DNA from: Tribonema minus
Lineage: Eukaryota; Sar; Xanthophyceae; Tribonematales; Tribonemataceae
Assembly (NCBI GenBank): GCA_017506865.1
Contig: JAFCMP010000279.1
Span: forward strand, 930,001 to 994,000
Length of the DNA: 64,000 bases
Direction of reading: 5' to 3'
Shown one piece after another: positions 96 through 63,740 of this stretch. The notes beneath the pieces were generated by a model. That model did no database searches, was not told the DNA's origin, and worked only from the letters and a program-made list of their open reading frames with translations. How positions within the stretch are numbered: the first letter of the stretch is position 1; the number at the start of each line of letters is the position of its first letter. The translations under genes were made by a program, and so were the position numbers.

Positions 96-249
96 TGCCA
101 GCATGGGGGCTACGCAAACACACGCCGAACAGCTGCGACTCCCACCCCCTCTCATGATGCACACAATGGACGGGCACGCTTGCTAGTTCGAAGTGAATAC
201 CGCAGGTAAACACTACACCTCAGCTGAAGTGCATTCCCAACTGCCGCAC

Positions 250-283
250 CTCAGAGTGTATGGCAGCACTCTCCAAGAGCAGG
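250..283 (-). repeat. Truncated copy of the kinase catalytic-loop exon 3' end
   Basis: The minus strand reads LLLESAAIHSE followed by a GTGCGG donor, a diverged copy of the end of the exon at 430-332 ([11 protein letters not shown], donor GTGCGT). It has no acceptor, so it is probably unspliced intron sequence. Confidence 0.75.
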
Positions 284-331
284 TAATCAGGTTCAACTGT
301 ATACTTCAATTGTATTGCATCCGAGACGCAC

Positions 332-3300
332 CTCAGAGTCTATGGCCGCGCTCTCAAAGAGCAAATTTTCGAGCTTCAGATCGCGGTGAACAACACCCTG
401 GTTGTGGCAGTAGCCAATGGCGCTGGTGACCTGCATGATGCAACAACGGCACGGCACGTTGCGGAATCATGTGTCAGTGCTAGGTTAGGGTCAGGGTCAG
501 GCAGCCGCCGGCAGCTTGGGGCCGGAAGTCTCACGCGCTTTCCACTCACGCTGCAAAAAGTCGCAATTGAGCGCCATCTACATGGAGCAGTCTCGTGCAA
601 AGAAGCCGTTTGTTCCTGCACTGCACAAACCACCAAACGGTGAACCGTTGCAAGCTTTGCCGGAGTGGCGGTCGCGTGGCGCATGAGGCCCATGCATGCA
701 TATCTGCGTGTGCGACTCGCGGCACGACGCGGCGGCCTTCGAGGGCTGCTGAACCTACATCAAGCAATCGCCAGCATGCTGCGCGACCTCCTTCATTGCT
801 CAAAGAGACGGCACGGCTGCTGTAGACAATACTGAATGGAAGCTGGATAACAGCAATGGGCACCCGCTGTTTTGGCCGCGCACGCAGAGGTACAGCGATC
901 AATAAGGTCCACTTGCGTAGCAGCAACTGGAGCAGTAAGGAAGCTCTGAGCACAGCTGCTGACTTTCTGCAAGAGCTCAAAGTCACAGCATCGTTGGTGT
1001 ATGCCGAACAAAACCACGAAGACGGCTGCGAGGGCACGCATCATCACGGCTGCACGCAGCAGAGGCACAGCCATGTGTAAAGTCTACATCCATATACTGA
1101 AGGCTGTTGCAGTAACAAAGCGGTGAGCAGTACCCGCTGATGTCCTACAACTTTTTGCCTTCTTCAACTTTTGCCTACTGACAACGGCAGTTAGAGATCA
1201 AGTCTGAGCAATGCCATTGCCGAGCATTCTACTTCTACTTCCAAAGTATACTCCTCAAGGGGTATGTGTGCACTGCTAGCCAGCACTCAGCTGGCTGCTC
1301 TGCAGCAGTTGTGCTCTTAGGCCCTTGTATAGTTGAAGTTACAAGAAGTTATATGCTAACAGTGCCTGCACGCGCATTCCCATGTTCTGGAGTGCGATAT
1401 ATATTGCCATTGCCCTTGACCCGTGTGAGCAGCAGTTGAAGTTTTGCTTGTGACCGTTTTCTGAAAAGCAACACGGTGGCCAACCGCGTTTCTGCGAAAT
1501 CTGGAAGCACGCCACCCGCACACCAGACCAATGTACAAAACACACGTGTGGGCGGGCAGAACGCTGACGAAAAGCCGCCAGCAACCGCCAACTTCAACTT
1601 CAACCGCGCTGTCATACGGCAATATGCCGAGCATGACTGGTCTCAGTACACAAGTCGCAATGCCTGGCAGGACAGATAGGGCGTCCCATGCCGACATCTT
1701 GGGCAGTAAACCTGGTGTGCCTGCCTGTTGCACGGCTGCAAGTCGCAAGCGCACTTTGACACGATTGTGTGCATCACGCTTACGTCCTTGCTGCAGCGCT
1801 GCTGCTGTCACCCACGCCTCACTGTCTGGACCACGCAGAGACAGCTGGGCCCACTGTACATCACATCTCGGGGGGCATTGCTGCAGCTTAGCTGCTGACA
1901 CCTCGACTGCACGGCCGCGCTTGCCTTGTACATTGCAGCGTCCACAATCAGAGCGGAACAGTCACTACAGCGCTCTATGTACACTGCTGACACCACTGTG
2001 CTGCGCGCCCCTCTCACCTTGCGTATGACAGCCGCAGCGTTCGTCTCCTCCTTAAACAGGGTCCTGTTATCCCGCAGCCGCCTTTCCAGATCGCCCCCCT
2101 CCGCCAGGTCCATGACCAGATACAGCTTGCTCTCCTCCGTGTAAACCTGCGGCACAGTCATGAAACAGAATGGCTCGGCTGACGTGCGGGTGAATCCAGA
2201 GAAGGCGCGCCTCCGGCAGCTTTTGGTGGCAGTTGCTGGTTGCGTCAGAATAGGCTGCCGCAAGGCTGCATGATGGACCATATCGTCGCTCTCAGCCAAT
2301 GCTGTAAGGAACCAGAGTGCGGATTGGGATGCCGGGGACTGCTGGCACCATAATAAGCACCAACGCTGTATGGGTGCTGATTGCAAGCATCTTGCGAGCC
2401 TTCAACGTGTGCAGTCGAGTCCACTCAAACCCATCAGTCCTCCATAAATGTCTGCGCCGCCCACACGTGACTCAAGTGAGTCCAACTGGTCCGTGATGGC
2501 ATGCTGAAATATGTGGCAGCCATGATGTTGGGTGTATTGGGTTCTGCGCAGGCGCACGCGACTGTTTCTGGCAGTCGTGTTTCACTGTTGGGCATCTGGT
2601 CAGCCCGTGCACTTGCATTTCAGAAAGCCACGCACCAGCGTCAGAGACACATTCTGGAGTCAAGCGTAGCGTCATGTTGCAGGCTGGCGTGTAGCCGTGC
2701 CGCGCTGTCGCATGTTGAGTTGTACATATCTGGATCGCCACTTCCACTTCTGCAGCCTGCATCTTGCGAGGTGGCCAGCGTGCGACACGCAATGGCTGTG
2801 CAGGCCAGCCGAGGCGCAATGCATCCCCAGCTGACACGATCATAGCAGGCACATCACCTTCGACTACTAGTAGTAGTACATGCAAGTGCAATGGTGTTCT
2901 CGGGGCGACGGCAGGCCCACGCCAACATACCTCTTGCAACCGTATTATGCCCGGATGGTCCAGCTGGCGCATGATCTCCACCTCCTGCCGCAGCAGCCCC
3001 TGCTCCGCGGGGCTCAGCCTGCCATTGACCTTGAACACCTTGACGGCGTAGCGGCCGCCGTTGCGCCTGCGCGGGCACGCAGCGCGGGCGCCGAACGCGC
3101 ACAGCAGCGGAAGTGAGCGCAGTGACACATTTTCTGATTGAGTTCTCATGAATGAGGTCCACAACCATGAATAGCAGCGAGTATTGTCACATGACACGAT
3201 CACATGACACGACAGGGTCAGTGACAAAGCGGTCATGTGCGGGGCACCAAAGAAGAACTTGAAGTTCACGACAAATCACCTCTTGTGCAGTGCAGCATGG

Positions 3301-3695
3301 TTTCGATACGCTGTTTTTGAAGGAGCTACTGAGCACACCTGTGTTTCGCCAGCCGCACCACCGCAAACGCCCCTTCACCAAGCTCCTGCCCATCGACAAA
3401 TTCGTACACTGTGTTGATGTCCCTGCAGGTGTCACAGCACAACAGCATTAGCAGCTGCAAGGCCAATTGTGAGCAAGTGCATCTTGCACAGAGCAATTTA
3501 AGGACTTGTCTCGACACGCAGCAGATGTCTTGCACAAGATGAGCACAAACCCTGTCGAAGCATCACCGCAACGCATGGCAACTCGACTGCCAGCTATACA
3601 CGATTTGTCATGGGTCCCAGCGCACACCTGTTGAAGAAGTCGTGGGTGAGGTTTTGAGCCTTGTGATTCTTGAGCCGCTGCAGCTGCACGGCCAC
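332..3695 (-). CDS. CAMK-like serine/threonine protein kinase, partial (C-terminal part lies left of the window)
   Basis: Five exons were joined with consistent phases: 3695-3628, 3422-3339, 3066-2931, 2146-2018 and 430-332. They read continuously through a protein kinase N-lobe and catalytic loop. Visible motifs are the glycine loop GEGAFAVV, the ATP-anchoring lysine in YAVKVFKV, the alpha-C glutamate in LLRQEVEIM, the hinge region [13 protein letters not shown] and the catalytic loop [10 protein letters not shown]. The HRDLKxEN form with EGGDL in the hinge fits the CAMK group (CDPK/CaMK-like) and implies phosphorylation of Ser/Thr substrates; the substrate is unknown. Every intron is GT-AG on the minus strand. 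The DFG segment is not present as a proper exon and should lie to the left, beyond the window. The 5' end is unresolved: the exon at 3695-3628 ([16 protein letters not shown]) begins after an acceptor, so the true start lies further upstream, perhaps within 3700-4500. Confidence 0.92.
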
Positions 3696-3699
3696 CTGC

Positions 3700-4520
3700 A
3701 GGCGATGACGACAAAACGGACATGAACAGCGCTGCTCATTGAAGGCAGTTCATGCTGCTGCGACGCCGGAACCGTGCGACACTTGAATCATGAATTTCCG
3801 ACCTCTGGGCTGCACACACAATGGACACCAAGAAGAGGCATCACACCAGAGGCTGCTTCACCTCGCGGTCATGTATGCTGGACGTTGGGGCCTCCTTGGC
3901 GGTCGTAGAGCTGCTGCTCTGCGCGCAGCCCATGTTAAGCCGAGCTCCAAATTACCAGCCTCCCAAGCTCCACTCAAAAGCTGGCATCGTGCCTGCTCTC
4001 TTCACTGCAGTGCGTGGCCCGACGATCTGTCTTGTGCCCCACAGCTCGCGCCTGCGCACTCCCCCAAATAGCAAGGATAGGCTGTGCAGTAGCGTCCAGC
4101 ACGCCACGTGGCGCGTAGGCTCACCGGCATTTCAATTGAACTTCCTGGTTGAGCTCGAAAATCACCGACACTCTTGAAGTTTCAACAGTTGAAGTTTCAG
4201 GGACAATGACCGTGACCATGGAATTTGTGGTTGCAGTTGAGGTTGCGACGGGTGTCAGTCAGTTGATGTAGGCACGCACAAAGTGCCTGACCACATGGCT
4301 CTGCAGCAGCTAATCATTCATGGCTAGAAAGTGCTGAGTGCTGCTCTGCAACATGCAAGGTCACCAGGCATTGCAAACGGGTGAGAGAAACCCCTTCGTG
4401 AGAAGCACAAAAAGTGTTGTCTGTGTGCATTTATTTTCGCGATGCCAACAAGCTTGCACGCGCAGACAAATGCGACGCTCTACTGCTGCAATTCGGCAAG
4501 TGCTCAAGCGCAAGGCGTCA
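3700..4520. other. Region without a confirmed gene (possible kinase 5' exons)
   Basis: No exon could be tied to the kinase or to a known family here. Short TTGAAGT motifs occur near 4170-4195. The missing kinase 5' exons are expected in this stretch on the minus strand. Confidence 0.4.
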
Positions 4521-4522
4521 CG

Positions 4523-5690
4523 CTACACGGAGCTGCGCGCCTGAGCAGCCGCCACCTTGCGCCGCAGCTGCCGGTACAGACACCGGTCAACATCGTCGCA
4601 CGGGCAGCCATTGGCCAGCGACCACACCACGGCTGACAACACGTGCATGTTGCGAACCGGATCAGTGTGGCCGGTCCACGGTAAAAAGTCAAGTGTCCTC
4701 TCTTCCTGCCACGGGCAGCCACTGGCGCGCGCCCACCGCAGCAGCTCCAAGTAACCCCCTCTAATCGCCCGTGTGCAGACCCTCCCGTCCCAGGGACAGC
4801 CCTGCGCCCGCAGCAGCTGTAGGGTGTCGAGATGCCCCATCTCGGCACGCGCGCACGCGTCTTCGTCGCACGGGCAGCCCACCTCGTGCAGCCACTGAAG
4901 CACGTTCCCGTGGCCTTCTTAAGCGGCCACCGCGTATATGCGTGTGTCGAACAGGCAACCGTTTTGCGTGTGCCCATTGTAAGAGCTGGAGATGGCCATG
5001 GCGGGCCGCGTTAGAGGACGTTTTCATGCTCCACGGACAGCCGTGGCTGCGGGCGTATTGGAGAGTGTCCAGGTGGCCGCCCGCCGCGGCGCCGTCGCAC
5101 GTGGCCTCGCCCCACCCGCATCCTGCGTCGTGGGCCCACGCCAGCACCTGCGTGTGCCCTCCGCTGGCCGCCGCGGTGCACGTGTTCGTGAACCAAGGGC
5201 GCCCGTTGGCGCGCGCCCATTGCAGCAGCTGGAGGTGCCCCCTGCGCGCCGCTGCTGCGCTTGTGGAGGCGTTCCAGTAAAACCCCTGGGCACGTGCCCA
5301 CTGCAGCATCTCCAGGTCGCCGCGCCCAGCTGCAGCGCTGCACACTTGCAGAAGCCGAAAATTTAAGCCGCGCCGGTGGGCCATGTTCGCGAACACGAAC
5401 TGCACCACTGCTAAAGTGCCGCATACGGCAGCATGGTGCAGTACCCCAACAGTCATTTTGTACCCGTTTGTGAATGCCCACTGTATAAGAGGCGCTGATG
5501 CAACCATGGCTAGCGCGGTGATTTCTTTCTCACGAGTCGCCAGCCCCCTCAGCTGCATGCTACTGGCATGTAGCGCCCGTCATGCAGTGCTCACAGATGA
5601 AACCTGGAGGTAGTGCCCGTGTGGCAGGAACTCAAAAACTTTCATCCACGTATATGAGGGCACAAGCAGATGGAGGTGTTTCAAGGTCAA
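4523..5690 (-). pseudogene. Ankyrin-like repeat protein pseudogene
   Basis: The minus strand encodes about ten repeats of the form GHLxxLQWARANGxPW (for example GDLEMLQWARAQGFYW, GHLDTLQYARSHGCPW, GYLELLRWARASGCPW), the divergent ankyrin type common in protists and large DNA viruses. An N-terminal segment (ESFEFLPHGHYLQVSSVS) stays open upstream of the first ATG at 5558. Three lesions disrupt it. A TGA at 5580-5582 stands where a Trp codon would suit the motif. A one-base insertion in an A4 run (TTTT at 4962-4965 on the plus strand) shifts the frame. A TAA at 4919-4921 then stops the restored frame. After these the repeats resume cleanly to the end at 4523. The coding pattern is otherwise well preserved, which suggests recent inactivation. 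The function was probably protein binding. Sequencing error could explain one lesion but hardly all three. Confidence 0.82.
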
Positions 5691-6213: not shown

Positions 6214-25679
<19,466 letters not shown>

Positions 25680-46044: not shown

Positions 46045-49000
46045 TCAGCTCGCCAGCATGACGTAGTAGCGCAGGTCGTTGAGAAACGCGGCCTGCGCGC
46101 TGTCGAACGCGCTGGGCTCCATCGGCGGCGGCGGCCACAGCGCCAGGAGCGCGTTCCGCGCACCGTCTGGGAGCTGAGGAAAGGTCTCCAGGAAGTGCGG
46201 CAGGAACTGGCTCACAAAGACGACCTGCGCGCGTTCAGCAGCGAGACAAAAAACACATGTAGTGAGGGTCGGGTTCGTGTGTGGCAAGCGCGGGCGGCAG
46301 TGCAGGCCTCTGACAGCGGAAAGGGGGGGGCCAGTGAATATTCAGCGCAATCGCTGCTGCACTCTCGCCGTTACTGTGCCTGGTCAAGCAACAAGACGCT
46401 GGAGCAGTGCCCCTTGAGGTTCTAGGCACGGCAGCCATGGCGGCGGCGGCGGCGACGCGTCTGATGGACCGCCGCACTAGCCAGCCGCCGCAGCGCGCCA
46501 CGTGTGTGTCACACCTCTCAGGCATTCACGTACTTTACTACCTACTTCAGCAGCGGCACTGGATGTTCACGGCGATGAAAGCCGCGGCGGCGGCGGCGGC
46601 AGCGGCGACGCACCTGGGTGACCGCCGCCAGCTCGCGCGCGAGCAGCGCGAGCTCGCTTCCGTTGACATAAAGTTGTTGTATATCATCAGATGTATAAGT
46701 TTCAATGCACTTTCCGCTGACACAACGACGTTGTATACCATCAAATGCCTAGAGTAATGTTGCACTGCACACAGTATGACTCTGGGCTTTGTAGGCGAGG
46801 GACCCTTCAGGGCGCGAGCCTTCTCAAGTATTTTGGCGCGCGCGCGATTCTCCACACTACCGATGCACCTGCGTGATGCCACGCTTGCTGATTTTTGCGG
46901 TGTGCGTATGCGTACGTGCGTATCGCTGCAACCATTCACCAATCAGCGCGCTGGGGTCGAGTTGCCGCACCCAGCAGGAACACTAGGGAAGCCTCGAGCT
47001 TATTCTGGCGCTGGCTCTCCAGCTCGTGGGGTGTTGCTGCACAGGCGACGCTGAGTGCGTGCAGCGCATTGCTGCTTGGAATGAATCATACTGCAGTCTC
47101 AAGCTTGCGGCCACGCTTCATGGCCTGCAGGGCGCTCTCATCGTGGTCCCCACTTTTCGCTCCTCAGAGTGAAGTTGTATATTATGTCCTGGACCGCATG
47201 GGCTTAGCACACGATAAATCGTGCAATAACTAAATCTAGGGAGGGGCCGGCGGTTCGGCGCTGGCTGGCGAGGGCCGCGGCACTTGCAACAGTGCGATGC
47301 GGCGGTAAGCGCTGACGTCGCCATCAGGGGCAATGACTGCGTTCCAGTTGTCGATCACGACACGTGTGAGCGCGCGCTGTAGCGCGAGGGAGGTGCGGCG
47401 GCGCCAGAAGGCAACGCGCTGCGCGAGATTGTAGCTGCCCTGCGAGCTCCCCTCGGCGAGTGCGTGTAGCAGCGCTTGGGTGTCGCGTGACTTAGCGCCG
47501 AAGTGGTCAAAGGCTGCGGAAAATAGGGTGTGTGTAGTGGGGTCCAGGGCCCCTGAGACTACGTATGTGTCTATCTTTTCCTGCGAAGCCGATTCAAGCA
47601 CGCACTGCACATCGCGCGCGCGCCCCTGAGCCTGACGGAGGCGGGAGGGGCATGAGCTGTCACGTATGGTGACGTCTAGTGAAGTTGTGCGTAACGGCTT
47701 TGAAGTTGCGAAGTACAAAACTTTTGCATCGTGGTGCTGGAAGAGCTTGACGCAGAAATAACACCGTCGCACAGGAAGGTCAGAACTCATGCTCGCAACA
47801 TGTACGTGTTTTTTAAAATACTCACAGATTAAATGCAAAGCAGCATTTGACGCACGTTCAAAAAACCTTTTTGCTGAGGTGGGAGCGATGGTCTCTGACC
47901 CGCTTTGAGCGCAGCTTACCCCCCTTGCTAGCCTCCTCTACACTATGGGTATGGGTCCCTCGCCCCCTGCCTCCGGAGGATTAAGGGAGGGCCTTCCTTG
48001 TTGAAGTTGGGAACTGTAGCGCGTGACATACCTGGTTGACCGCCGCCAGCTCGCGCGCGAGCAGCGCGAGCTCCTCCGCGACGAGCGGCTGATCCCCGCG
48101 CGCGAGCTGCCGCAGCGCGCCGCCCAGCGCCCACGGCAGCTGCTCCGCGGCGAACGCGCCGAGCGCGAAGAGCGCGCGCGCCGCATTGTGCCGCCGCAGC
48201 AGCGCTGCGGCGCGCGCCGCGGCGGCGGCGTCCGCGCCCTCGCCGCACGCGCAGCGGCACAGCGCGTCGCACACGCGGCGGAAGAGCGCCGCGGCGCCGC
48301 CGGCGGCGACGAGCGCGCGCGCGTCGCCGCTCTTGGCGACGCCCTCCACGAAGCAGTGCCACTGTGCGCACGCAAGCGCGGGCGGGGGGGGGGGGGGGGG
48401 GGGGGGGCGCGCGTGAGCGTTCTAGCAATCGTTTTTGTGCAAGTTTGTGCTGTGCTGTCGGTGGTGTGTTCGTACCGCTGCGCGCGCTGATGGGATGCGG
48501 TGCGCATGCACGGCGAGTAGAGAGCTGGCCACGCCCTCCACAAAGCAGTGCCACTGCGCACGCAGACGCGCGGGGAGGGGGGAGGGGCGCGCGCGTGAGC
48601 GCATCGCGTTTTGGTAATTGTTTTTGTGAAAGTTTGTGACGTGATGTCGGTGGTGTGTGCGTACCGCCGCGTGCGCTGATTGGATTGGATGCGCTGCGCA
48701 TGCGTGGCAAGTAGAGATTGCATTGGTCGTCGCTGGTTTGGTGCTCCCGCCCATGAGGTAATGGCAGTTCACGCCGTGCGGCGAAGAAATGGTGCCGTCC
48801 CTAGGGCGCGCTGTGCTTCACAGAACGGTACGCGCGCGGCACTTGATGGTGGCGAGCGCTGTTGCCAGTCGCGCCGTTGGCTCACGGCCGTTGGGCGGAG
48901 CATGGCTGCAGCAAGTCCTGCTGAAAGCGCAGCAAAGGTTGAAGCGCAGCAACTCGTGCGTAGTCGCAAAAAATCGCTCTGCTCCCTGCCGCAACCTACT

Positions 49001-52000: not shown

Positions 52001-54563
52001 TCGGTCCTCCATGCGCGGCTGCAGCTGTTTGAGGGCCGCGCCTGCGAGGCATGCAGAAAGGACGGTGCAAACGCGCACATCATTATGCGATAAGTCCATC
52101 GAACTGTGCCCTGGCAGTGATGCAGCAGCAGCAGCCTGGCAGAATGAATGTGTGTCCGCAAGCGTAAACGACACGCACGTGGACACGTGTGCAATGGACA
52201 TGCAGTCAGGCGACGCAGAGGAGGTGAGGCTGCTTAGCACGAACGCAAAGCTGCAGCTGGGGTTGGGATTGGGGTCAGGGTCAAGGTGTGCGGTGCCGAT
52301 TACCCTGATCCGATGCGGCATTCACGCGTATGCACATTTCACTCACACGCAATGCGGGCGGCTGCTGCACGTGGCTACGGCTTCAAACCGTTTGCACGCA
52401 CACATACTCTGTGAAGCTATGCGTACCCTCTGTCACAGGACATATGCCTTCGTGTACCTGAAAGAGAGCCCCGCGGCAGGTGCACCTCTGCACGCGTCCG
52501 CACCTGCATACCTACATACCCTGCACAGCCACGCATACCCTATGTATGCATGTACGCACCTGATAGCGAACCCGGCGGAAGCAGCACCTCCGCGAGCGCG
52601 GCGTGCACGGCGACCCTCGCACGGGGGGGCAGCCAGCTGAGCGGTGCTGCAGCGCCGTCCCCCCCTTGCGCAGCTGCATGACGAGGAGCGAGCGTTCAGA
52701 AGGCGCACGCGTCAGACGTTGGGCCACCGCACGTCCATCGAGTGCTCATCGAGGAACTGTTTTGTGGGAGCTCTGTTTGTGCGCGCGGACGCAGGCGTGA
52801 GAGTGCGCACGGCGGACTGTAGGCTTGAGCTAAAGAAAGAGGCGTGGTTGATGAGCATTGGGGTGCCACACCAGTTGAGCGCTGCTTCGCTGCTGCCTCC
52901 CTGCATGTCAAGAATGCAGCAATTTGGGCATGCGAAGCTCGCGGTGCAGCGCACTCATTGCGTCGAACGGCGGCAGAAAGCACGCGTCAGCTCAGAGACG
53001 GGTGCCTCAAAGACTGTGGCACCGCGGCACACCGGATGCATCCGCACTGCGGCCCCCAACAGCATCCCGGTGTCGAGCGCTGCTGCCATGGCAACATGCG
53101 CCCATATCTACCCATGACACGCGCGCGGGCTGGAGCATTGCTGCGCTGCGGTGGTAAGGAGCAAAGCACTCATGCGCGCGCTGTCTGCCACCGCCGCAGA
53201 GCTCGCTGCCGCGCGAGCTCTGCGGCGGCGGCGGCGGCTACATCAGCGCTCAGGCGAAGGGCGCTGCTGCACGTGCGGCTGCTGATGCGTGCCCCCAGAA
53301 AACACCATCAAAGGCGCCGCAGGCGTCCCCAAGTTCAACTTTGACGGGCGTCACGCGCCGCGGAAGGCCGGAGGGGACCACCATCTCTCACGCAAATGGC
53401 AATCGAGAGCGCAGTACTCGGACGAGTCCGCGGCGCAGCGACGACGCCGCGCGCGCGGCGCCAAACTTCAAGCGTGAAGTGCGCACCCGTCGCCGCCGCC
53501 AGCAGTGCCTGCAGCGACGCCCGCAGGCGCGCGCTTCACTCTTGAAGTTTGAAGGTGCTCTCCCACTGCTCCAAGCGAACGGCGCGGGCGTGGCGCTCAA
53601 GGCAAGAGTGCATGGCGCCATGCCGCGGTGAACACAAGCACGCGCGTAGGCGGCCGGCAAACCAACAAACTTGAAACTTCAAACCTCAAGTGTGAAGTGC
53701 GCACCTGTCACCGCCGCCAGCAGCGCCTGCAGCGGCGCGCTCGCCGCGGGGCGTGCGGGCGGCTGCGACCGCGCCAGCGCGCGGATGGTGAGCGCTGCCG
53801 CCAGCGCGACCGCCTCCGGCGCCGCCGCGCTTGGATCGAGCGCCGCGGCGGCGGCGGCGCACGCGCCGTCGACGAGCTGCGCGGCGGTGGCGTCGTCCGG
53901 TGCGGCGAGCGCGGGGGCGAGGCGCGACAGCGCTCCGAACAGGGCCACCTGTAAACGCACTGAAGGGGGTAGGAGGGGGGGGGTAAGGGGGGGGTGGAGG
54001 GGTAGAGCACTGCGGGCGTTACCGTGATCTTGTAGAAATTGCAGTAAAGCATCAAATGTCTTTGGTTGAAATTGAATAATACTCAAACCACAAGCGGCCT
54101 GTGGTCTTGTGTGTCACAATGTGTGAGGGGGGGGGGGGGGGTGAGGGGGTAGAGGGGGTGCGCTGCGGAGGTGTGTGCGGGGTGCGTGGTGCAGACCTCT
54201 GGCGGCGAGCCCTGGGCACAGCTCCGAAGAAAGCCACATGGCGGGGGGAAAGAGGGGGGGGGGGGGGGATGGGACAGTGCTATTGGGGGGGCATGCAGCC
54301 TGTGGAGAATAAATCAGCAATGCGTGTGGTCGCAGCGGTGGGCTTGGCGAGCGCAGGAGCCGAGCCGCGACAGCCCCCAGGAGGGGGGCTGCCATGCAGC
54401 AGCACTGCGCGCGCAAGCGGGGCATCAGATGCGACTCGCAAGGCAGCTTCTTTTCTCAGCAGTGGAGCCGCGAGAGCTCACCGTGCGCCGCGCCGCGCTC
54501 GTATGTGCGCGCCGCGAGCACGCCGCGGCACGCCTCCAGCGCGACGCCAGCGGCGCCAACGCA

Positions 54564-54600
<37 letters not shown>

Positions 54601-57600
54601 ACCAGCGCGCACAGCGCGGCGGCGTCGCGCGCGAGGCGGTCCGCGGCGGCGGCGGTGGGCGCGGCGGTGGCGGCGGCGGCGGCGAAGAGCGCGAGCGCGC
54701 GGTCGCCGAGGCGCGCCGCGACGCGCGGCACGCGCGCAGCGACGCTCAGCAGCTCGAAAACCTCTGCGACGAACGCGTCGACCTCGCTGGGGGGGCCTGC
54801 GAGGGGGATTGAAGGGGAGGGGGGGGTGAAGGGAGCAGGGGGGGGGGGCATTGGTAGGAACGCGGTCATGGGCGTGCTGGTGGCGATGCTCAGCAGGGTT
54901 TAGAGGTATACAGGTCCTGATCGATGGGCGCGTCGACACTAATGCAGAGGGCCTGCAGTGTGTGCGGCGGCGGCAGAGGAACGTTGAAGTTGCCGTAACC
55001 GTGCAACCGCTAGAAGTATCAGGCCAGGGTCCGAGACGCGCTTACCGGCGCCACAGCCATCGCCGCCGTCGGTGTCGTCCTCGTCCTGCTCCAGCGCGTC
55101 GCCGCCGCCGCGCGCACTGTCGCCATCGCCGCCGCCGCTGCCGGGGCTGTCCTCGAGCTCTGCGAGCCCCTCCGCGTTGGTCATGTATAGCGCCTTGCTG
55201 AGCAGCTGCTCGCACACGTGCGCCAGGCCCTCCCAGTGCTGCGCGCAGCACGAGGAGGGGGGGCCGGCGGCGTGAGCGCGCGTCGTGCGGTTCTGTGTGT
55301 GTGTGCGTTGCGGGGATGGAGCGTCGCCCCGTGTTGAAGTTGGCATCAGCGGTGAGGAGTGGGAGCTCTCGGGAGGCGTAAGCCGCGTGCGGCAGGCCCT
55401 CAGGGAGCCAGCGGGCGTGAGCGCGTCATTGCCCTTGTCTGCGCCGTGCGGGCTGGCGCGCCATATGAGAAGTTGAGTCCAAGAGGCGCAGATCAGCGGC
55501 GAGCAGATCGTGTGCCCTGCTGCGCCAGTGCCGCCAGCCCCCCCCCGCCCCCGTTCCTCCCCCTCGGTGATCATGGTTGCAAACGCGCCCCACGGCTCCA
55601 GGCGCCAGACAACACGTTAAAGTCCAGGTGCATGCTTGACAGCACAGGCAAAGTCATGCTATATACGTCACTCAACGCCATTGCGCGCACCTGCTGCGCC
55701 AGCGCCGCCAGCGCCCCCCCCCTCTCCTCCCCCTCCGTGATCATGGTCGCGAACGCGCTCCACGGCTCCAGGCAGCGCCGCAGCCCCTCCGTGTCGGGCT
55801 GCTGAAACGTGAACGCGGCGAGCAGGTCGAGCAGGTCCCCCACGGGGAACAGGTGCTGAGCGCTGCTGCCGCTGTCGGCCTGAGCGATGATGCGCGGCAG
55901 GTGGCGCTCCAGCAGCACGTTGAGCAGCTGCACGAGCTGCGGCGCGCGAAAGAGCGGAGGGTGCGGGGGGCGAATTCGTTGACTAGGTAAACCACGCACT
56001 GCAGAGTGCCGTGCGCTGCACCGCGTGCGGGTGATCATCATCACGAAGTATGCACGCGGTGATGACGAGGGCGCGGAGCGTGCGGAGGAAGCGCTTGAGA
56101 GCGAAGAAAAAACGAGTCGTATCGATGCATGGCATGTCGGCATGCGCGCCTCCTTCAGAGAGTGCACAAGTGCGGTCACAGTCGCAGACGATCCCGGGTT
56201 GCTCCCTGGCATTATGGGTGCCTGCTGCGCACTCAACAGGGCAGTCACAAGTGTAGCACAACAACATGTCATCACTTCAACCTCAACCTGCAGCCACATT
56301 TACTTCAACAAGTACACATGTGAACTCATGCTGGACTGCAGGGCACGTGCTCAGTACCAATCAACACCTGATGCATTCCACTGCTGCTGCTCTCTCCGCG
56401 CACACTCCACACCCAGCCGCATATGCCCGTTCCCCATTCACTTCAACGAGTACACACGTACTCCACGTGCTTCAGCGAGTACACACGTGAACTCACGCTG
56501 GACAGGAAGGCGTCGCTGGTGCTCTGCAGCGCCGCGCCGCCGTCGCGCGCGAGCAGCCGCAGCGTCGCGAGCATGTGGTGCGCCAGCTGCAGCACCAGCG
56601 GCTGCAGCGCCGCCGGCACGAGCCGCTTGCCCAGCACCTGCGGTGCGGTGCGGTGCATTGGGATGAAATCAGTTGTTTTGAAGCTTACAAGTTCTACTTG
56701 AAGTTGCAGCTGCGTGACCAGTGGCTGCAGCGCCGCCAGCACGAGCGTCTTACCCAGCACCTACGTGGCGGTGCGGCACGGTGCGCAACCCCTGTATGCG
56801 AGAAGCAGTATCAGATACTTGAAGCATGGCGGTTTTACAGCGCCGCCGGCACGAGCCTCCTGCCCAGCACCTGCGCGGCAGTGCGACGTGCAGCCGGGCA
56901 AGCGTTAGGCAAGAAAGGTCACGGTGCACAAGAGGGCTAGGGTAGGTCGTGGGCGAGCTGACAGAGGTAGGGCCACACACGCACCTCCATCACGCACGTC
57001 ATGGCGCGCGCGCCGCACTCCGACAGTGCCGCCGCAATCACAGGGCCATGATTCAGGACCCACATTGCAGTGCAGATTGCAGTTGCAGTTGCAGGTCACA
57101 GTGACCTAGCCTTATTCTTCAGGCTACGGTCAGCTCCTGGCGCACTGATGGCAGTAGCAACTACACACGCAAGTACATACCTCCATCACGCACGTCATGG
57201 CGCGCACGCCGCACTCCGACAGCGCCATAATCATAGGGCCTTGAATCAGCACCCATCGCGAAGATCACGTTCACGTAATGAGCGTAAGCCGCACTCGTAG
57301 GGTTAGGGTTAGGTCATGGCGCACTGAGGAAGGCGCACTCTCTCGGGGCTACGGTCAGCGCCTGCCGCACTGATGCGCACCTCCATCACGCACGTCATGG
57401 CGCGCACGCCGCACTCCGACAGCGCCGCGGGGTCCGCCGCCGCCGCCTCCACAGCGCTCAGCAGCGCGCCCAGCAGCCGCGGCGACGCAGCCTCCGCCAG
57501 CTCCGACCAGCCCAGCAGCACCTCCAGGCACGTCAGCGCCGCGGTGAGAGCGTCGCACGCCCCCTGAGATAAGGATTAGGGAGATGGCGGTGGGGGGTGC

Positions 57601-60007
57601 TCTCAGGCTACTTGGATGAGGGCGCGGGCGCGAGGGCTCGGGCCAGCACGAAGGCTAGGGTTAGAGTTAAATCAACGATCAGCAGCACAGCTCCAACCAG
57701 TCCAGCAGCACCTCCAGGCACGTCAGCGCCGCGGTGAGCGCCTCGCACGCCGCCTGGGGTTAGGGTTGGGGGGGGGGGTGGGATTAGGGCTAGAGGGGCA
57801 CAGGGTGGTGGTGGGGGGTACTTGGGTCAGGGCTCGAGTGAGAAGGCTCAGGCCAGCAGAAAGTAGGGTTAGGGTTTCTATGGGGCAACGCTCAGCAGCC
57901 TCTCTCTGGCAGCAGCAGGGCAGCCGCGAGCGTCTGACGCGCCGCCCGCAGCCAGGGTCGCTGCGGAGGTGACGCGTGTCAGGGCTCAGCATGCTGACTC
58001 GCCGCGCCACCGCCGGAGAGAGCCCCTCAATTGCACCTGCTGCAGGAAGCCCTGCGGCGCAGCAGTGCTGGCACCAGTGACATTGCACAGGAGCTCGTGT
58101 CCCAGTTCCACTCATGCCCTGCGTGATCATACTGTCAGTGGTTCATTGTAACAAGTCTGGCGTGAAGTGTCCAGCAGTCCACTGCCACAGCGCCGGTGCA
58201 CGGCTGCGATTCTGCGGCGCCCTGATGCTTCTCGTATGGTCATCAACGCTCAGCAATTCCAGCTCCGTGAGCCATCGGACTGTCAAATCGACGGATATTC
58301 AAACTGTGTACAGCGCGCGCTGTGCATGAGTATTGCTGGCAGAGGCCTGCAAGGCCTCGCGCACCTGTTGGCCGCCGCTGCGCTGCAGCGCCGCGATGCT
58401 AACGCTGACACCATTGCTCAGCAGCTGCAGCGCCACTGGTAGCGCTGGTCACAGAGCTCCGTGCAGCTCTGCGCGGTCAGCAACCCGATCCCTGACCCTT
58501 GCCCTGACCCAGCCAGAACCCAGCTGATGACACACCTACCGCGCTGCAGCGCCGCGAAGCTGACATCATCGCTCAGCAGCAGCGCGGGCAGCGCGCTCTG
58601 CCGCAACACTGCGCACAATCAGAGTTGACCCCGACCATGACCCTGACCCTATCCCAAACCTGACTCTGCACACACCTGCTGGCCGCCGCCGCGCTGCAGC
58701 GCGGCGATGTTAGTGCTGGCATCATCGCTCAGCAGCTCCAGCACCGGCGATGGCGACAGCGCTGGTTGTAGCGCCCCTTGCAGCTCCGCCGCAGCACTGC
58801 GCCCGGTCAGATACATCAACTCTCGCCCTGACCCTAACCCTAGGCCTGCTCTCAACCGCACCTGCTGCTGCTGCTGGTTGCCGCCGCGCTGCAGCGCCGC
58901 GATGCTAGTGCTGGCATCGGTGCTCAGCAGCTGCAGCGCTGTAGGCAGCTCTATGCGGCTCCGCGCAGCCAGCAACTCGAACCCGAACCGGACCCCTGCC
59001 CTAATCCTATCCCAGACCTGACTTACAACACACCTGCTGGTCGCCGCCGCGCTGCAGCGCCGCAATGCTGGCGTCGAGATCAGTGCTCAGCAGCTCCAGC
59101 ACCGCCGGCAGCGCGCGCCCCGCAGCGTCGTGTGCAGCTCCGCCGCAGTACTGCGCCCGGTCAGGCATATTAATCATCACCCTGACTTCAACCCCAGGCC
59201 TGATCTCAACCGCACCTGCTGGTCGCCGCCGCGCTGCAGATGCTAGCGCTGACATCATTGGTCAGCAGCTGCAGCACTGTAGGCAGCGCGCAGCGCAGCA
59301 CTATTTGCAGCTCCGCACAGTCAGCAACCCAAACCCTGACCCTTGCACTGATCCTACCTCAAGTTTAGCTTACAACACACCTGCTGGTCGCCGCCGCGCT
59401 GCAGCGCGGCAATGCTGGCGTCAACGTCAGCGCTCAGCAGCTCCAGCACCGCGGGCAGCGCGCGCCGCAGCGCCGCGTGCAGCTCCGCCCGCCGCGCCGT
59501 CAGGACCAGCAGGTCCCCCCTCACGAGCTCCTCCGCAAACAGCGTCAGCAAAAAGAGGCCGCAGGGGCGCGTGGCATCGCTCCGCGCGAGCGCCATGACG
59601 TCGTCGAGGAACGACGGATCCTCCGCAGGCCACGTGTGTTTGGCAGCGTCCACGAGCGCCTTGCCGACCTTGGTGAGGACCCAGCGCGGGAGCGTGCGCC
59701 ACGAGTCGACGACGAAGGCGAAGAGGAACTGCCGCAGCTGCCGCCGCTCGTCGCGCTGCGTGCTGTCCCAGCGCCTCAGCACGAGCTCCTCCAGTATGGC
59801 GCCCGCGAAGTACAGCAGGTAGAGATCCGATGGCGCCGGCGGCTGCTGGTGCTGGTGCTGGTGCTGCAGGATCTGCAGCGCGACGTGGTGCGACTGCGGC
59901 TGTTTGCGGAACTCGGAGAGTTGCCGCTCCAGGTGTGCCTTGGCGTCAGCTGCAGTTGTGGGCGAGTAGAACTGGTCCAGTGCGGATCGCAGCTCCTCTA
60001 CAGACAT
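46045..60007 (-). CDS. XPO6: Exportin-6 (importin-beta superfamily), at least 13 exons
   Basis: Exons: 60007-59381, 57563-57381, 56637-56497, 55936-55691, 55238-55046, 54796-54482, 53959-53705, 52673-52560, 51843-51693, 50984-50690, 50045-49842, 48361-48032, 46224-46045. All phases agree and give about 1077 residues, against about 1125 in human XPO6. Identification rests on collinear similarity as I remember the family: VLTKVGKALVDAAKHTWP and LLTLFAEELVRGDL near the N-terminus, LLDLLAAFTFQQPDTEG in the middle, an acidic LEQDEDDTDGG stretch, and FLPHFLETFPQ and FLNDLRYYVM at the end. Exportin-6 carries actin-profilin out of the nucleus with RanGTP in animals; that cargo is inferred here. About 40-50 residues expected between the last two exons are missing, so a further exon between 46225 and 48031 may have been overlooked. 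For exon 7 the acceptor at 53960 rather than 53949 keeps the phase. Confidence 0.9.
46608..46652 (-). repeat. Donor-side copy of the XPO6 penultimate exon
   Basis: The minus strand reads SELALLARELAAVTQ followed by GTGCGT, a close copy of the end of the exon at 48361-48032. Confidence 0.85.
47236..47838 (-). CDS. Unassigned open frame nested in the last XPO6 intron
   Basis: A 200-codon frame on the same strand as XPO6 has coding-like composition, unlike the surrounding intron. It stays open further upstream to about 47920 (SGSETIAPTSAKRFFERAS), so it may exceed 220 residues. Notable pieces are RRCYFCVKLFQHHDAKV, SASQEKIDTYVVSGALD and LTRVVIDNWNAVIAPDG; the first has two cysteines in CxxC-like spacing. 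The first ATG inside the frame is at about 47790 (MSSDLPVRRCYF). I recognise no family. It could be a nested gene, a mobile-element gene, or a retained exon of an unknown gene. It does not resemble exportin. Confidence 0.4.
   Translation of the reverse strand: MHLICEYFKKHVHVASMSSDLPVRRCYFCVKLFQHHDAKVLYFATSKPLRTTSLDVTIRDSSCPSRLRQAQGRARDVQCVLESASQEKIDTYVVSGALDPTTHTLFSAAFDHFGAKSRDTQALLHALAEGSSQGSYNLAQRVAFWRRRTSLALQRALTRVVIDNWNAVIAPDGDVSAYRRIALLQVPRPSPASAEPPAPP
48522..48553 (-). repeat. Acceptor-side copy of the XPO6 penultimate exon
   Basis: GCGCAG followed by WHCFVEGVA-coding sequence, like the start of the exon at 48361, with a similar upstream C-rich (minus-strand) tract. Confidence 0.8.
49400..49842 (-). 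repeat. Three donor-side copies of XPO6 exon 11 (50045-49842) punctuated by telomere-like repeats
   Basis: Copies at 49697-49790, 49532-49607 and 49433-49474 each repeat LDFLRFAEALLDNQ-coding sequence up to the donor. CCTAACCC-type tracts lie directly beside the donors at about 49405-49430, 49505-49530 and 49815-49838. Confidence 0.92.
50053..50470 (+). repeat. Three-copy tandem array in an XPO6 intron
   Basis: Units near 50053, 50153 and 50377 share GGCAGCGGAGCGTCGTGC, AGAGGGGTCAGAG, GGAGGCCGCG and GTGCAGC blocks. They contain no clear exon sequence. Confidence 0.8.
50615..50680. repeat. Telomere-like CCCTAA tract beside the XPO6 exon 10 donor
   Basis: CAACCC-type and CTAACCC units end ten bases from the donor at 50689. 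Confidence 0.85.
52008..52050 (-). repeat. Acceptor-side copy of XPO6 exon 9 (51843-51693)
   Basis: The minus strand reads GAALKQLQPRMED, a diverged copy of the true TALKHLQPRIED start. Confidence 0.82.
53476..53550 (-). repeat. Donor-side copy of XPO6 exon 7
   Basis: It repeats the LQALLAA-coding end, a GTGCGC donor, and the following TTCA/TTGAAG motif. Confidence 0.75.
55532..55606 (-). repeat. Donor-side copy of XPO6 exon 4
   Basis: It repeats PWGAFATMITEGEER and the GALAALAQ-like end, with an expanded C/G run. Confidence 0.88.
56713..56875 (-). repeat. Two acceptor-side copies of XPO6 exon 3
   Basis: 56713-56766 and 56838-56875 both repeat VLGKxLVxAALQPL-type sequence after GCGCAG/ACGTAG-like acceptors upstream of the true exon start at 56637. 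Confidence 0.88.
56985..57226 (-). repeat. Two donor-side copies of XPO6 exon 2
   Basis: 56985-57032 and 57181-57226 repeat LSECGVRAMTCVME and the following GTGCGT/GTATGT donor. Confidence 0.9.
57695..57775 (-). repeat. Acceptor-side copy of XPO6 exon 2 next to a telomere-like tract
   Basis: It repeats ACEALTAALTCLEVLL with a changed 3' end; its 5' edge abuts CCTAACCCCA-type repeats at 57757-57767. Confidence 0.88.
58365..59381 (-). repeat. Array of seven donor-side units from XPO6 exon 1
   Basis: Donor junctions lie at 59381 (true exon), 59216, 59034, 58862, 58676, 58536 and 58365, at intervals of 165, 182, 172, 186, 140 and 171 bp. Most units repeat LELLSxDxxASIAALQRGG and end in QQ plus GTGTGT or GTGCGG. 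CCCTGACC-type and CCCTAACC sequences lie between units. None has a clear acceptor. Confidence 0.93.
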
Positions 60008-60582
60008 GATTGCGCCAGCAAGGTAGTGAAGTCAAGTTCTGTTTTCAAGCGCGAAGGCCGGTGCTGGTGCTGCTGATACTGCTGCTTGTGACGATTTTTG
60101 GGGTTCACCAAATACTGCTGGTGCTGGTGCTGCTGCTGCTGGTGATGGTGCTGCTGAAGTCTCTTAAGTATCTTCAACAGGATCCCGCTGCAGGAAAAGC
60201 TTTGAGGTGAGTTCAATTGCTTGCTGCTGTTGCAATGCAATTGCAGCTACTGCACTGCAATGGCCGCTGCTGGCAATGCCTCCAGTACAACTGCGTTCTC
60301 GCTGTGTTGTGCTCCTGCCCTGATCTTCAATCACCCTGCGCTACGGGACAAAGTGCGTGACAGTTTCACTTTTTAAATTCGAAAATGACATGAGAAGACA
60401 GTGAGCGCTGGACCCACGGACAAGCAGCAGAATCAGACGTGTGAAGTCAGGTGGCCTGATTGCTACCTGACAGCCGCCGTCAAGCCATTGCGGCATCAGT
60501 GCCAGGTGTCTGACACCATCCTTAACTGAGGCTATAGCACCTTGACAGGCAGTGGGGGCAGGAGAGGGCGGGGAGCAGCGTC
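60008..60582. promoter_or_regulatory. Divergent intergenic region shared by XPO6 and the hydrolase gene
   Basis: The two start codons face away from each other across 575 bp, so both promoters should lie here. A GCTGGTGCTG-rich stretch (60060-60175) is the only visible structure. No core promoter element is identifiable. Confidence 0.5.
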
Positions 60583-63500
60583 ATGAGGAAACCCAGGAGG
60601 ATGGATCTGTCTCGCTCTGCGCCGAGCTCGCCCTCTGGTGGCGCAGGCCACAAGTCCAGGTCAGGCGTGCCAGATGTGCGCCTCTCCCCTGGCGCCAGGG
60701 ACGACGCTGCCCTCGGTGCCAGCGCGGCGCTGTCCCCGGCGCAGGGAGCAGGCAGCGGAGATGCCGGGTCTGGCACGCGGCAGCGCTGCTGCAAGTGCGC
60801 CAGGCCTGCGGCGGTGTGGTGCGGCGACTGCGCAGCCCACCTGTGCGACAGCCACGACAGATCCCGACACAAGGCCTCCCTCTTCCGCACGCAGCGGCTC
60901 ATCCACAGCCGCACGCGGCACACGCACGACTTCGACATCGGCGTCTTCGAGATACCGCCGTGCCCGGATGTGCCGCTGAGCCCCGGCGCCAACTCGCGCA
61001 GCGAGCTGAGCCCCACCGCGTCCAGCAAGTCCCCCTCCCCCAGGGGGGCCGAACGCGGGGGGGGGGGAGCTGCCCCCACAGAGGAGGACGCAGGCGCGGC
61101 GGGCAGCAGCGGCGGCGGGGCGCGGAGCGGCGGCGGCGGCGCGGCCAGCAAGGCGGCGCGCAAGCGCGCGCAGAAGCAGGGCGCCATCAAGCAGCTGCGC
61201 ACGGGCTACAACGCGCTGGTGATGGCGATCGTGCGGCCGCCGCGCTGCTGCTACGCGGAGCGCGACCTGGGGCCCTGGGCGCTGTCCGTGGGGGGCGGGC
61301 TCGTGCTGCACCGGCGCGACTTCCCGGTGGTGAACCGGCGCGGCGTCGCGCTCGCGTGCAGCCAGTGGCGGCCGTCGTTCGTGGACGCGACGGGGGCGCT
61401 GCCGTGCGTAGTTTATCTGCACGGCAACTCGTCGGCGCGCGTCGACGTCGTGCGCACGCGCGCGCTCACGGCGCTCGCGTCCATGGGCGCGAGCATCGTC
61501 GCCTTCGACTTCTCGGGCAGCGGCCTGAGCGGCGGCGACTTCGTGACGCTCGGCGGCAACGAGCAGCACGACGTCGCCGACGTGCTAGCGTACCTGCGGA
61601 GCGAGTGCATGGCGAGCAGGTGAGGAGGGGGGATGGGGGGGGCGGTTCAGAGAGAGAGAGAGAGAGAGAGAGCGCAGGGGCGGATAGGGGGGGGGGGCTC
61701 AGAGAGAGAGAAGGAGAGAGAGCGCACACGGTGGGGGGCGTAGTATGGGGGCGGTTTGTGGGGAGGGGGACTGGGGGGCGGGGGGGGGTCGAGCACAGGG
61801 GGGGTATGAGTGTGTGCGGCGCGGGGCGAAGGCGTGGCAGAGGCTGTAACTGCTGGGCAGTTGGAGGAGTGCACAGGAGGTGCAGTGGGGGTCGGGGGAG
61901 GGGCAAAAGGGGGGATTGGGGGGTTTGCTGGGGATGCAATGGTGCGACAGGGGCTGTCACCGCGGCGGGCAACAGGGGGAGTACCGAGGCGGGGGAAAGG
62001 GCGGACGCAACGCGCATCAGCCTTGCTGTATCGCCAGGCGCAATGTGCTGCAGCGGACTGCCGCAGCGCTAAGCCACGCGTCACACGGCCGCTGCGGTGA
62101 ACCGAGCCGCCGGTCATCGTTCGCACTCGGAGGCCGCCCGCTGGGTGTCCAGAGGTCGCAAACACAGCGGCACGCTGCTGGCATTGGGCGATGACTGAGC
62201 ATCGCTGAGAAGGTTTTCTGACATGGTCACCGGATGAGAGCAGCACTGGAATGATCGCGGTGACTCTGCGGGCGGAGGCGGCGGCTGGGTCACGTATGGC
62301 TGCGGCCAGCTGCGCTGTTCACCAGCCAGTGGCTCATTGCGCACGTGTCTATACCGCGTGGCGAGGTCCTCCATGCCCCGTTTATTAGACCGGTCCCTCC
62401 AGCTGGCTGGCATCGCATTACGCAGCCCCAGGGGCGCGGGAATGAGGCTCAGCTGCACCTGGCAGCAAGCACTGCCTGCTCCTCACTGGTTCTGTGGTTC
62501 GAGCATGAGCGTCAGGGCGCTGAGCACTGATGTGAACTGCGCGACAGATGCGCGCTACGCTTGTGGGGGTTGCGGTGCACGCCACGACTACCTACCGTAC
62601 TCTGCGGACCACGCAGCTCGCGATCCGTTACGGAGCGGAGCGTTGTCAGCAAACGCCGCTTGACAACACGGCTGCTCTTGTGATATGTGTAGTTGCCCCC
62701 CCCCAAGCGCGTCCGCCGGTTCACCATCACAGGCAGGAGCGTGGGATGTGTGGCCCTTGAGTCAAAACATGCATGGCATGCCGTAAGTGACGTCGCTGAC
62801 GCATTGCCATCCCCTGCTTCGCCGCCGCGTCGCGCGCGTCGTGCCGCCGCGTCGCGCGCGTCGTCGCAGGTTCACCATCTGGGGCAGGAGCATGGGCGCC
62901 GCCAGCGCGCTGCTGTACACGAGCAAGTACGGCTCGGAGCATGTGGCGGGGCTGGTGCTCGACAGCCCGTTCGCATCCTTCAGGTGCGCAGCTGCCCGGT
63001 GACTGCTTGGACGCATGTGCTTCAGAGCACTCCGCTACACTTTGACGTGTATGAGCAAGTATCCTTCAAGTATGCTTTAGAGCACCAAGAGCTTGCACGG
63101 CTCCGAGCACGTGGCAGGGCTGGTGCTGGACAGCTCATTCGCCTCTTTCAGGTGTGTAGCTCTGGTATGACTGTGGTTGGTACTTCCAGAGGGGGCAGGG
63201 GGCGTATGTCGCACAGGGTGTACGGCGCAGACCGCGCGCCTGCGTAGGAGAAGCTACAAGGGGGTATTGGTATGGCGCAGACTACTTGACAGTGTTTGTG
63301 CACGTCATGACGGTGTCCTCCTGTTGCAGCTTCAGAGCACTGCCATGCATATGGACGTGAAACCCTGAAGTTTGTGCTTCGGAGCGTGCGCTGCACAGTG
63401 CTCATCGACGCCTCTCCGCGTCCCCGCTTCTCACGCCCGCCGCGCAACGCCGCACTCACTCGCTCGCTCGCTGCGTGCCACGCGCAGGGCGCGCTGTGCC

Positions 63501-63740
63501 AGGCAGGACTTCCTCAAAGCTTGTGTGTGTGCACAACGGCACGGTGCTTATCGGCAACTCCCTTCATCCCCGCTTCTCACGCCCGCTGCACTCACGCACT
63601 CGCTCGCTGCGCGCCGCGCGCAGGGCGCTGTGCCAGGACCTCGTGGCCATGGGCCAGGTGCGCGTGCCCAAGGTCGCGGTGCGCGCGGCGCTGGCGCTGA
63701 TCCGCCGCAGCGTCAAGAAGCGCACGCACACCGACATCAG
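60583..63740 (+). CDS. B-box zinc finger/alpha-beta hydrolase fusion protein, partial (3' end outside the window)
   Basis: Exons 60583-61619, 62870-62983 and 63624-63740 join in phase (each junction splits an Arg codon) and give 422 residues before the window ends. Residues near 66-95 form a B-box-like zinc site (CCKCARPAAVWCGDC, then CDSHDRSRH). A low-complexity Ser/Gly/Ala linker follows. The hydrolase part has VVNRRGVALACSQW, the oxyanion strand VVYLHGNSS, AFDFSGSGLSGGDFV, the nucleophile elbow GRSMGA (Ser nucleophile) and LVLDSPFASF. Exon 3 gives the VRVPKVAVRAALALIRRSVK segment typical of the serine-aminopeptidase-like hydrolase subfamily of plants and protists. The acid and His of the triad should lie beyond the window. 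The substrate is unknown. The ATG at 60583 is the first in frame; a second lies at 60601. Confidence 0.88.
61620..62869. other. Intron 1 of the hydrolase gene
   Basis: It begins with a long G-rich/(GA)n tract (61625-61810), including an AG dinucleotide run at 61649-61672. No second gene is supported within it. Confidence 0.7.
63098..63151 (+). repeat. Donor-side copy of hydrolase exon 2
   Basis: It repeats GSEHVAGLVLDSSFASF and a GTGTGT donor downstream of the true exon. Confidence 0.88.
63487..63512 (+). repeat. Acceptor-side copy of hydrolase exon 3
   Basis: CGCGCAG followed by GGCGCGCTGTGCCAGG resembles the start of the exon at 63624, in a similar CTCGCTGCG context. Confidence 0.75.

Follow-up and report, generated by a model that had tools for sequence, protein, structure and literature searches.

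Degenerate copies of exon edges in the introns of unrelated genes of Tribonema minus

Short duplications inside genes that involve both exon and intron sequence were reportedly described by Gao and Lynch in 2009 as internal gene duplication. Passages of two reports describe tandem duplication in exons that creates splice-site copies and thereby a new intron from exon sequence (PMC3443670, PMC2891723). Across 20 eukaryotes, partial, inter-boundary and intronic exon matches occurred in significantly more genes than full-exon matches, according to passages on the program Exonize (PMC12343006), and a further report, as excerpted, attributes small tandem duplications to fill-in of 3′ overhangs at breaks, with short insertions under 100 bp (PMC8355091). 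Here we describe a 64,000-nt stretch of DNA from Tribonema minus (hereafter the window), part of a 1.06-Mb contig in a genome of 158 Mb, in which introns of a protein kinase gene, a DHX8/PRP22-like helicase gene (DHX8), a ClpX-like AAA+ gene (ClpX), a putative XPO6-like exportin gene and an alpha/beta hydrolase gene contain diverged copies of neighboring exon edges.

The arrangement resembles each of these systems in part. Compared with internal gene duplication, it involves ~30% of the 140 junctions tested here, forms multi-copy arrays and appears to lengthen introns rather than make new ones. Duplication-based intron gain, as far as the excerpted reports go, has splice-site copies in common with it, but here no intron is newly born, and the copies lie at those ends of existing introns opposite to the ones that model implies (PMC3443670, PMC2891723). 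With the Exonize classes it shares degenerate exon matches in introns of the same gene; the copies here are confined to edges, multi-copy and strictly polar, while the Exonize passages give neither per-junction density nor polarity (PMC12343006). Fill-in duplications are likewise direct tandem copies and offer a candidate molecular origin (PMC8355091); the spacing here is ~180 bp. The literature searched, which excluded most subscription journals, showed no precedent for genome-wide exon-edge copies in introns, although Exonize counts related classes. Short tandem duplication is thus known, and what is unusual here is the density, the excess at junctions, the partial, polar, multi-copy form and the outcome. 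The initial annotation of the window went too far in stating that no named mechanism matches, because short tandem and intragenic duplication have been described and the polarity would follow from keeping the exon intact.

Copies of exon edges in the window

Comparison of the window with itself (E ≤ 1e-6) yielded 46 direct repeats and one inverted repeat within 5 kb, that is, copies on the same strand and close together, as local tandem duplication predicts. In an edge test, 90 exon edges (80 nt of intron plus 80 nt of exon each) were compared against all 45 introns of hand-built models for the five multi-exon genes (50 exons; 36,320 bp of intron in total). At a score of at least 26, this gave 49 junction-spanning matches, or 47 after dropping two overlaps. 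All 26 acceptor copies lie in the upstream intron (17 of 45 acceptors affected) and all 23 donor copies in the downstream intron (14 of 45 donors), with no match on the wrong side, on the wrong strand or in a non-adjacent intron. Each of the 49 matches therefore conforms to the annotated polarity, in which upstream copies carry the acceptor plus the 5′ part of the exon and downstream copies the 3′ part plus the donor. A laxer score of at least 20 admitted one wrong-side and 30 far matches on both strands, which is noise level.

At that laxer score, with some chance matches included, exon-head copies begin within the first three exon bases in 18 of 22 matches and exon-tail copies end no more than two bases from the exon end in 25 of 29 (hydrolase exon 2, 114 nt long, being measured to its own end); the copies thus cross the junctions. 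About 45 of the 47 merged copies are solid: the one at 37511-37637 loses all exon bases on realignment and the one at 61650-61726 is of low complexity. The junction copies are therefore real, and the annotated number of about 40 was fair. Any repeat pair was found in 26 of 45 introns and a junction-spanning cluster in 23 of 45, so that copies are widespread but occupy about half of the introns, not clearly most of them as claimed. Their presence in all five genes held up, but the kinase contributes a single copy, read by eye beyond the model end and outside the automated counts, and the hydrolase has only two modelled introns. For exportin exon 1, the automated count is four extra copies and the count by eye about six.

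The models yield continuous reading frames with domains running across junctions in a Pfam search (Table 1). Among the matches listed, the DHX8 model shares 65-92% identity with 120 homologs, several of them named DHX8/PRP22; named matches derive from a brown alga, pelagophytes, diatoms and oomycetes and also from Verticillium, Merluccius and Closterium records, while most matches are nameless. Overall, these relatives suggest a photosynthetic stramenopile. Exportin family membership is backed by the Xpo1 and IBN_N domains, with XPO6 as a putative finer label. In the models, two donors read GC rather than GT, those of DHX8 exon 19 (25219, +) and ClpX exon 2 (41166, -). Separate from the tabulated copies, the end of exportin exon 12 and its donor recur at 46601-46655, 1.4 kb away, past another open reading frame (ORF) and beyond the usual spacing.

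Table 1 Genes, exon-edge copies and telomere-like tracts in the window. Acceptor copies comprise the acceptor plus the 5′ part of the exon, donor copies the 3′ part plus the donor. Identity is to the native edge (exon part/intron part).
Feature	Positions	Strand	Identity	Remarks
Protein kinase gene	332-3933	-		6 exons modelled; Pfam Pkinase
DHX8/PRP22-like helicase gene	6214-25679	+		20 exons modelled; clean 1328-aa frame; holds most copies
ClpX-like AAA+ gene	34405-43114	-		9 exons modelled; frame intact; Pfam AAA_2, ClpB_D2-small
Exportin (putative XPO6-like) gene	48032-60007	-		12 exons modelled; frame intact after two exon starts corrected; Pfam Xpo1, IBN_N
Alpha/beta hydrolase gene	60583-63740	+		3 exons (2 introns) modelled; Pfam Abhydrolase_1
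Kinase exon 6 donor	249-282	-		read by eye
DHX8 exon 5 acceptor	11941-12043	+	97%/72%	
DHX8 exon 5 donor	12384-12506	+	92%/78%	
DHX8 exon 6 acceptor	12951-13054	+	87%/86%	
DHX8 exon 6 acceptor	13039-13151	+	91%/89%	
DHX8 exon 7 acceptor	13799-13891	+	83%/75%	
DHX8 exon 8, 3′ part	14912-14967	+	86%	donor no longer alignable
DHX8 exon 9 acceptor	15104-15237	+	95%/84%	
DHX8 exon 9 acceptor	15271-15422	+	95%/81%	
DHX8 exon 9 donor	15809-15913	+	99%/85%	
DHX8 exon 9 donor	15992-16049	+	95%/70%	
DHX8 exon 9 donor	16115-16206	+	89%/80%	
DHX8 exon 10 acceptor	16739-16844	+	94%/76%	
DHX8 exon 11 acceptor	17699-17769	+	89%/77%	acceptor dinucleotide AC
DHX8 exon 11 acceptor	17738-17888	+	95%/87%	
DHX8 exon 11 acceptor	17878-17976	+	85%/79%	
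DHX8 exon 13 acceptor	20127-20169	+	78%/85%	short; score 27
DHX8 exon 15 donor	21645-21726	+	90%	to 21467-21548
DHX8 exon 16 acceptor	21886-22000	+	77%/78%	
DHX8 exon 16 acceptor	22107-22227	+	98%/81%	
DHX8 exon 16 donor	22695-22839	+	96%/73%	
DHX8 exon 18 acceptor	23841-23948	+	92%/85%	
DHX8 exon 18 donor	24356-24447	+	96%/75%	
DHX8 exon 18 donor	24550-24637	+	90%/88%	
ClpX exon 2 acceptor	41511-41591	-	64%/88%	14 exon bases
ClpX exon 3 acceptor	40476-40568	-	90%/79%	
ClpX exon 3 donor	39991-40075	-	94%/84%	
ClpX exon 4 acceptor	38544-38625	-	80%/68%	
ClpX exon 4 acceptor	38733-38785	-	100%/71%	18 exon bases
ClpX exon 4 acceptor	38865-38929	-	78%/78%	
ClpX exon 4 donor	38082-38149	-	94%/81%	
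ClpX exon 5 donor	37418-37510	-	96%/75%	
Exportin exon 1 donor	58949-59113	-	93%/80%	
Exportin exon 1 donor	58814-58949	-	78%/61%	donor dinucleotide gapped
Exportin exon 1 donor	58628-58746	-	85%/70%	
Exportin exon 1 donor	58462-58595	-	81%/77%	15 nt indels in exon part
Exportin exon 2 acceptor	57688-57782	-	92%/76%	
Exportin exon 2 donor	56980-57032	-	96%	to 57376-57428
Exportin exon 3 acceptor	56838-56892	-	94%/85%	
Exportin exon 3 acceptor	56707-56776	-	85%/81%	
Exportin exon 3 donor	56272-56344	-	80%/82%	weak; 15 exon bases; donor dinucleotide AT
Exportin exon 4, 3′ part	55516-55603	-	86%	donor not alignable
Exportin exon 7 donor	53462-53531	-	84%/92%	
Exportin exon 8 donor	52393-52496	-	74%/71%	weak; score 26
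Exportin exon 9 acceptor	51995-52087	-	89%/89%	
Exportin exon 11 donor	49498-49610	-	97%/81%	donor dinucleotide TT
Exportin exon 11 donor	49374-49475	-	93%/76%	
Exportin exon 12 acceptor	48526-48628	-	93%/76%	
Hydrolase exon 2 donor	63086-63161	+	82%/80%	
Hydrolase exon 3 acceptor	63398-63547	+	70%/84%	
Telomere-like tracts	43-71, 483-497, 18370-18399, 18497-18524, 22974-22990, 38698-38718, 38722-38737			
Telomere-like tracts, continued	49403-49430, 49511-49533, 49812-49837, 50642-50668, 57297-57314, 57757-57771, 58826-58842			

Recurrence outside the window

The edge test was extended to six chaperonin genes outside the window, two of them on its contig. They were modelled from ~10 gene loci, picked after the profile hit table had been seen, with four loci left out. 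From 34 neighboring anchor pairs, 25 introns were placed and nine dropped as unresolved or gapped; two table rows judged to be partial copies were excluded as exon anchors. At a score of at least 22, ten acceptor matches (6 of 25 acceptors) and 11 donor matches (5 of 25 donors) were obtained, corresponding to 18 copies after merging overlaps. All 21 show the predicted polarity, with no wrong-side, wrong-strand or far match in the six genes and 25 introns, and all fall in three genes (L032, L034 and L036). One of the chaperonin loci left out (L037), examined in part and outside these counts, contains an exon with two copies upstream of it.

In hidden Markov model hit tables, partial exon copies were recognized by eye in four of 56 chaperonin, two of 132 kinesin and one of 28 tRNA-synthetase rows, and in none of 96 myosin rows. 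All seven share the polarity, two being already within the chaperonin edge-test count; one more overlapping match pair, on C4, is ambiguous. Twenty other 10-kb loci (200 kb, unannotated; ten on the contig of the window) contained 64 direct and six inverted repeats within 2 kb, with direct local repeats present in 15 of them. Abutting copies of 98% identity at two other loci (L023, period 258; L024, period 199) indicate that the duplication process is recent or ongoing; other high-identity pairs, and most of the older pairs in the window, have unaligned gaps between their parts.

Decay of the copies and their probable origin

Across the 47 window copies, 2078 of 2329 exon-part positions (89%) and 1751 of 2188 intron-part positions (80%) are identical to the native edge. 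Mismatches at codon positions 1, 2 and 3 amount to 65/778, 67/776 and 119/775 (8.4, 8.6 and 15.4%). If selection preserves the exon so that only the extra copy is free to mutate, positions 1 and 2 would differ about half as much as introns, in which both copies drift, with position 3 in between; the observed order matches this one-sided drift and fits neutral-like decay. The chaperonin copies follow the same order (6.8, 4.5 and 16.6% at positions 1, 2 and 3, 19.8% in introns). In DHX8, the native exon carries the commoner residue among 118 homologs at 46 of 47 amino acid differences to the copy, and 15 of the 47 window copies have indels in the exon part. AG is retained in 23 of 25 acceptor and GT in 17 of 22 donor copies, approximately as expected if the copy alone decays, by ~10% per base. 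Scored with a matrix trained on the native sites, spare and native sites have medians of 6.25 and 6.29 for acceptors and of 6.36 each for donors (background AG -0.04, GT -1.43); the lower tail extends further among the copies than among native sites, and the 10th percentile of the native scores is attained by 16 of 25 acceptor and 17 of 21 donor copies. Given such native-like scores, the copied sites could still be recognized, and the decoy splice sites foreseen in the initial annotation may thus persist as splice-site-like sequences. Its new alternative exons found no support, because the decay of the copies resembles that of neutral sequence, and on this pattern they look like neutral debris.

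The best explanation, to which we assign a probability of roughly 85%, is that small tandem duplications span splice junctions and that the extra copy decays within the intron. Such duplications would arise often in this genome, perhaps through repair of staggered breaks, and one that crosses a splice junction would place two identical junctions side by side. With a duplicated acceptor, giving the order tail-head-tail-head, the message would stay unchanged only through use of the last acceptor, leaving the extra copy upstream; with a duplicated donor, the first copy would have to serve and the extra copy would lie downstream. The mutation would be tolerated only where the spliced copy leaves the exon whole. 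The native site would thus be the one spliced, the unused copy would fall within the intron, lengthen it and drift neutrally, and repeated rounds would build arrays. From this geometry, we infer that polarity is set by selection and not by the mutational process, because only the arrangement that keeps the exon intact would survive; it would then call for no special mechanism, consistent with every clear case. The spacing between copies is typically 100-350 bp, with a median of 178 bp for window clusters (quartiles 146, 178 and 208 bp), and the copies fit the annotated tandem duplication across one splice junction in polarity, strand and proximity. Directly in hand are same-strand neighboring copies, strict polarity, near-neutral decay, longer repeat-bearing introns and unrelated genes on several contigs.

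Several observations weigh against this explanation or limit it. In the chaperonin copies, divergence at positions 1 and 2 together is only 5.7% (35/615), whereas half of the 20% intron divergence would give ~10%, a shortfall that may reflect weak constraint or gene conversion. Of the six chaperonin genes, L031, L033 and L035 yielded no junction-spanning match in the same edge test, so copy density is uneven; of the genome-wide process proposed initially, the recurrence stands, in three of six chaperonin genes, in the hit-table copies and in the 64 versus six repeats, but not an even spread. The median intron length is 838 bp with repeat pairs (n = 40) and 479 bp without (n = 30; 70 introns, P = 2e-4), and subtracting repeat-covered bases from the former leaves a median of 461 bp; the copies thus appear to lengthen introns, as had been suggested, but longer introns also offer more room for repeats, and the difference is support, not proof. 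Finally, tandem duplication alone leaves unaccounted for an excess of copies at junctions over uniform placement.

Placement at junctions and rival explanations

A junction is touched by 33 of 39 clusters (16 acceptor, 14 donor, one both and two exon-only), with six interior; clustering merges interior copies into edge arrays and may hide interior events. An earlier intron-only count of 28 interior, 13 edge-touching and one inverted is ambiguous, as copy-copy pairs count as interior. A simulation in which tandem duplications fall uniformly, with spacing as observed, introns changing neutrally, exons under constraint and intron lengths at present or 0.6-fold values, expects 30-49% of clusters at junctions (binomial P = 4e-6 against 49%); it treats duplications as single and independent, uses a simple base composition and lets ages reach 0.4 substitutions per site. 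Repeat members span 43 of 140 junctions (31%) and cover 20% of intron sites at least 400 nt from a junction, or ~11% when coverage c is converted to c/(2-c), since both copies are counted. These figures, and the nucleosome-like spacing in the window, would favor a duplication process aimed at exon edges, for example through DNA breakage during transcription or in the linkers between phased nucleosomes, in addition to the tandem-duplication explanation. However, the per-site excess is only 1.3- to 2.8-fold (31% versus 11-24% of intron sites by distance), exon parts remain recognizable longer, shorter tandem units are also present in the window, and interior copies are folded into edge arrays. 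Moreover, the data cease to reject uniform placement once introns are assumed to have had ~0.25-0.3 of their present length when duplicated. The excess would stem from targeting or from formerly shorter introns, and we consider targeting possible but doubtful. Slightly more tentative is the notion of a continuing nucleosome-sized duplication focused on junctions, by which introns would grow outward from exon edges while in many genes the spliceosome would have to ignore intact duplicate sites ~180 bp off, making these genes natural experiments.

The window also contains 14 interstitial telomere-like TTAGGG/CCCTAA tracts, compared with 0-1 in ten block shuffles, and 26 more occur in 200 kb elsewhere. 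Three sit 0-21 nt past a donor site. Because some of the tracts fall within duplicated donor copies, not all are independent. These tracts may mark healed breaks, and their presence in the same introns as the copies hints at a common origin in repaired breaks.

Selection might instead maintain the copies in a role as regulated splicing decoys or alternative exons. The agreement of spare and native median site scores, far above background AG and GT, is in line with this, as is the slightly higher conservation of chaperonin positions 1 and 2 than neutral decay predicts. We nevertheless regard it as improbable: the lower score tail has decayed, and neutral decay fits the indels, the mismatch pattern across codon positions and the commoner residue being on the exon side at 46 of 47 differences. 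Furthermore, no match covers a whole exon with both splice sites, as in mutually exclusive exons, when as many as 120 bases of exon at each edge were compared with the exon's own intron, longer exons not being compared over their full length. Birth of introns through duplication, in tandem, of exon sequence with an AGGT in it, documented for other species in the excerpted reports (PMC3443670, PMC2891723), is still harder to credit: the start of an intron should then look like that of the downstream exon, and its end like that of the upstream exon. Here, exon-head copies lie at a relative intron position of at least 0.49 in 20 of 22 matches and exon-tail copies at 0.53 or below in 28 of 29; the three exceptions touch no junction. 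Introner-type transposable elements, reported in 5% of all species searched according to a passage in PMC9860276, would leave near-identical introns in unrelated genes. The 45 window introns share only three matches of 25-38 bp (E ≤ 1e-3), and no edge of score at least 26 matched any intron but its neighbor, making this source very unlikely. Least credible is assembly error or haplotype mixing, because junction-spanning matches of score at least 26 are only 63-93% identical, many have indels, and they recur on several contigs. Assembly error, introners, intron birth and functional alternative exons were thus rejected on divergence, unshared introns, geometry and neutral decay, respectively.

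Other features of the sampled DNA were recorded. A single-ORF gene resembling L-2-hydroxyglutarate oxidase (28279-29427, +) has, its own record aside, mostly bacterial named best matches at ~50-57% identity and one Prymnesium parvum match at 53%, and is a candidate for transfer from bacteria. In DHX8 intron 1, a stretch at about 6630-7105 has inverted repeat arms of ~53 bp (94%) and is overlapped by an unrelated minus-strand ORF; it may represent a mobile element. ORFs with ankyrin-like repeats, labelled by eye, lie at 4504-5579 (-) in an internally repetitive region. Outside the window, two RuBisCO large-subunit fragments (L029 and L030) on the long contigs C334 and C112 each carry a stop codon and are probably plastid DNA insertions.

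Duplication across splice junctions would be a simple way for introns to lengthen, and one that can be measured. It would also offer dozens of natural tests of splice choice, in which similar sites form pairs ~180 bp apart and only one of each pair would be usable. If the density seen here holds genome-wide, copied exon edges may often mislead gene prediction in this lineage.

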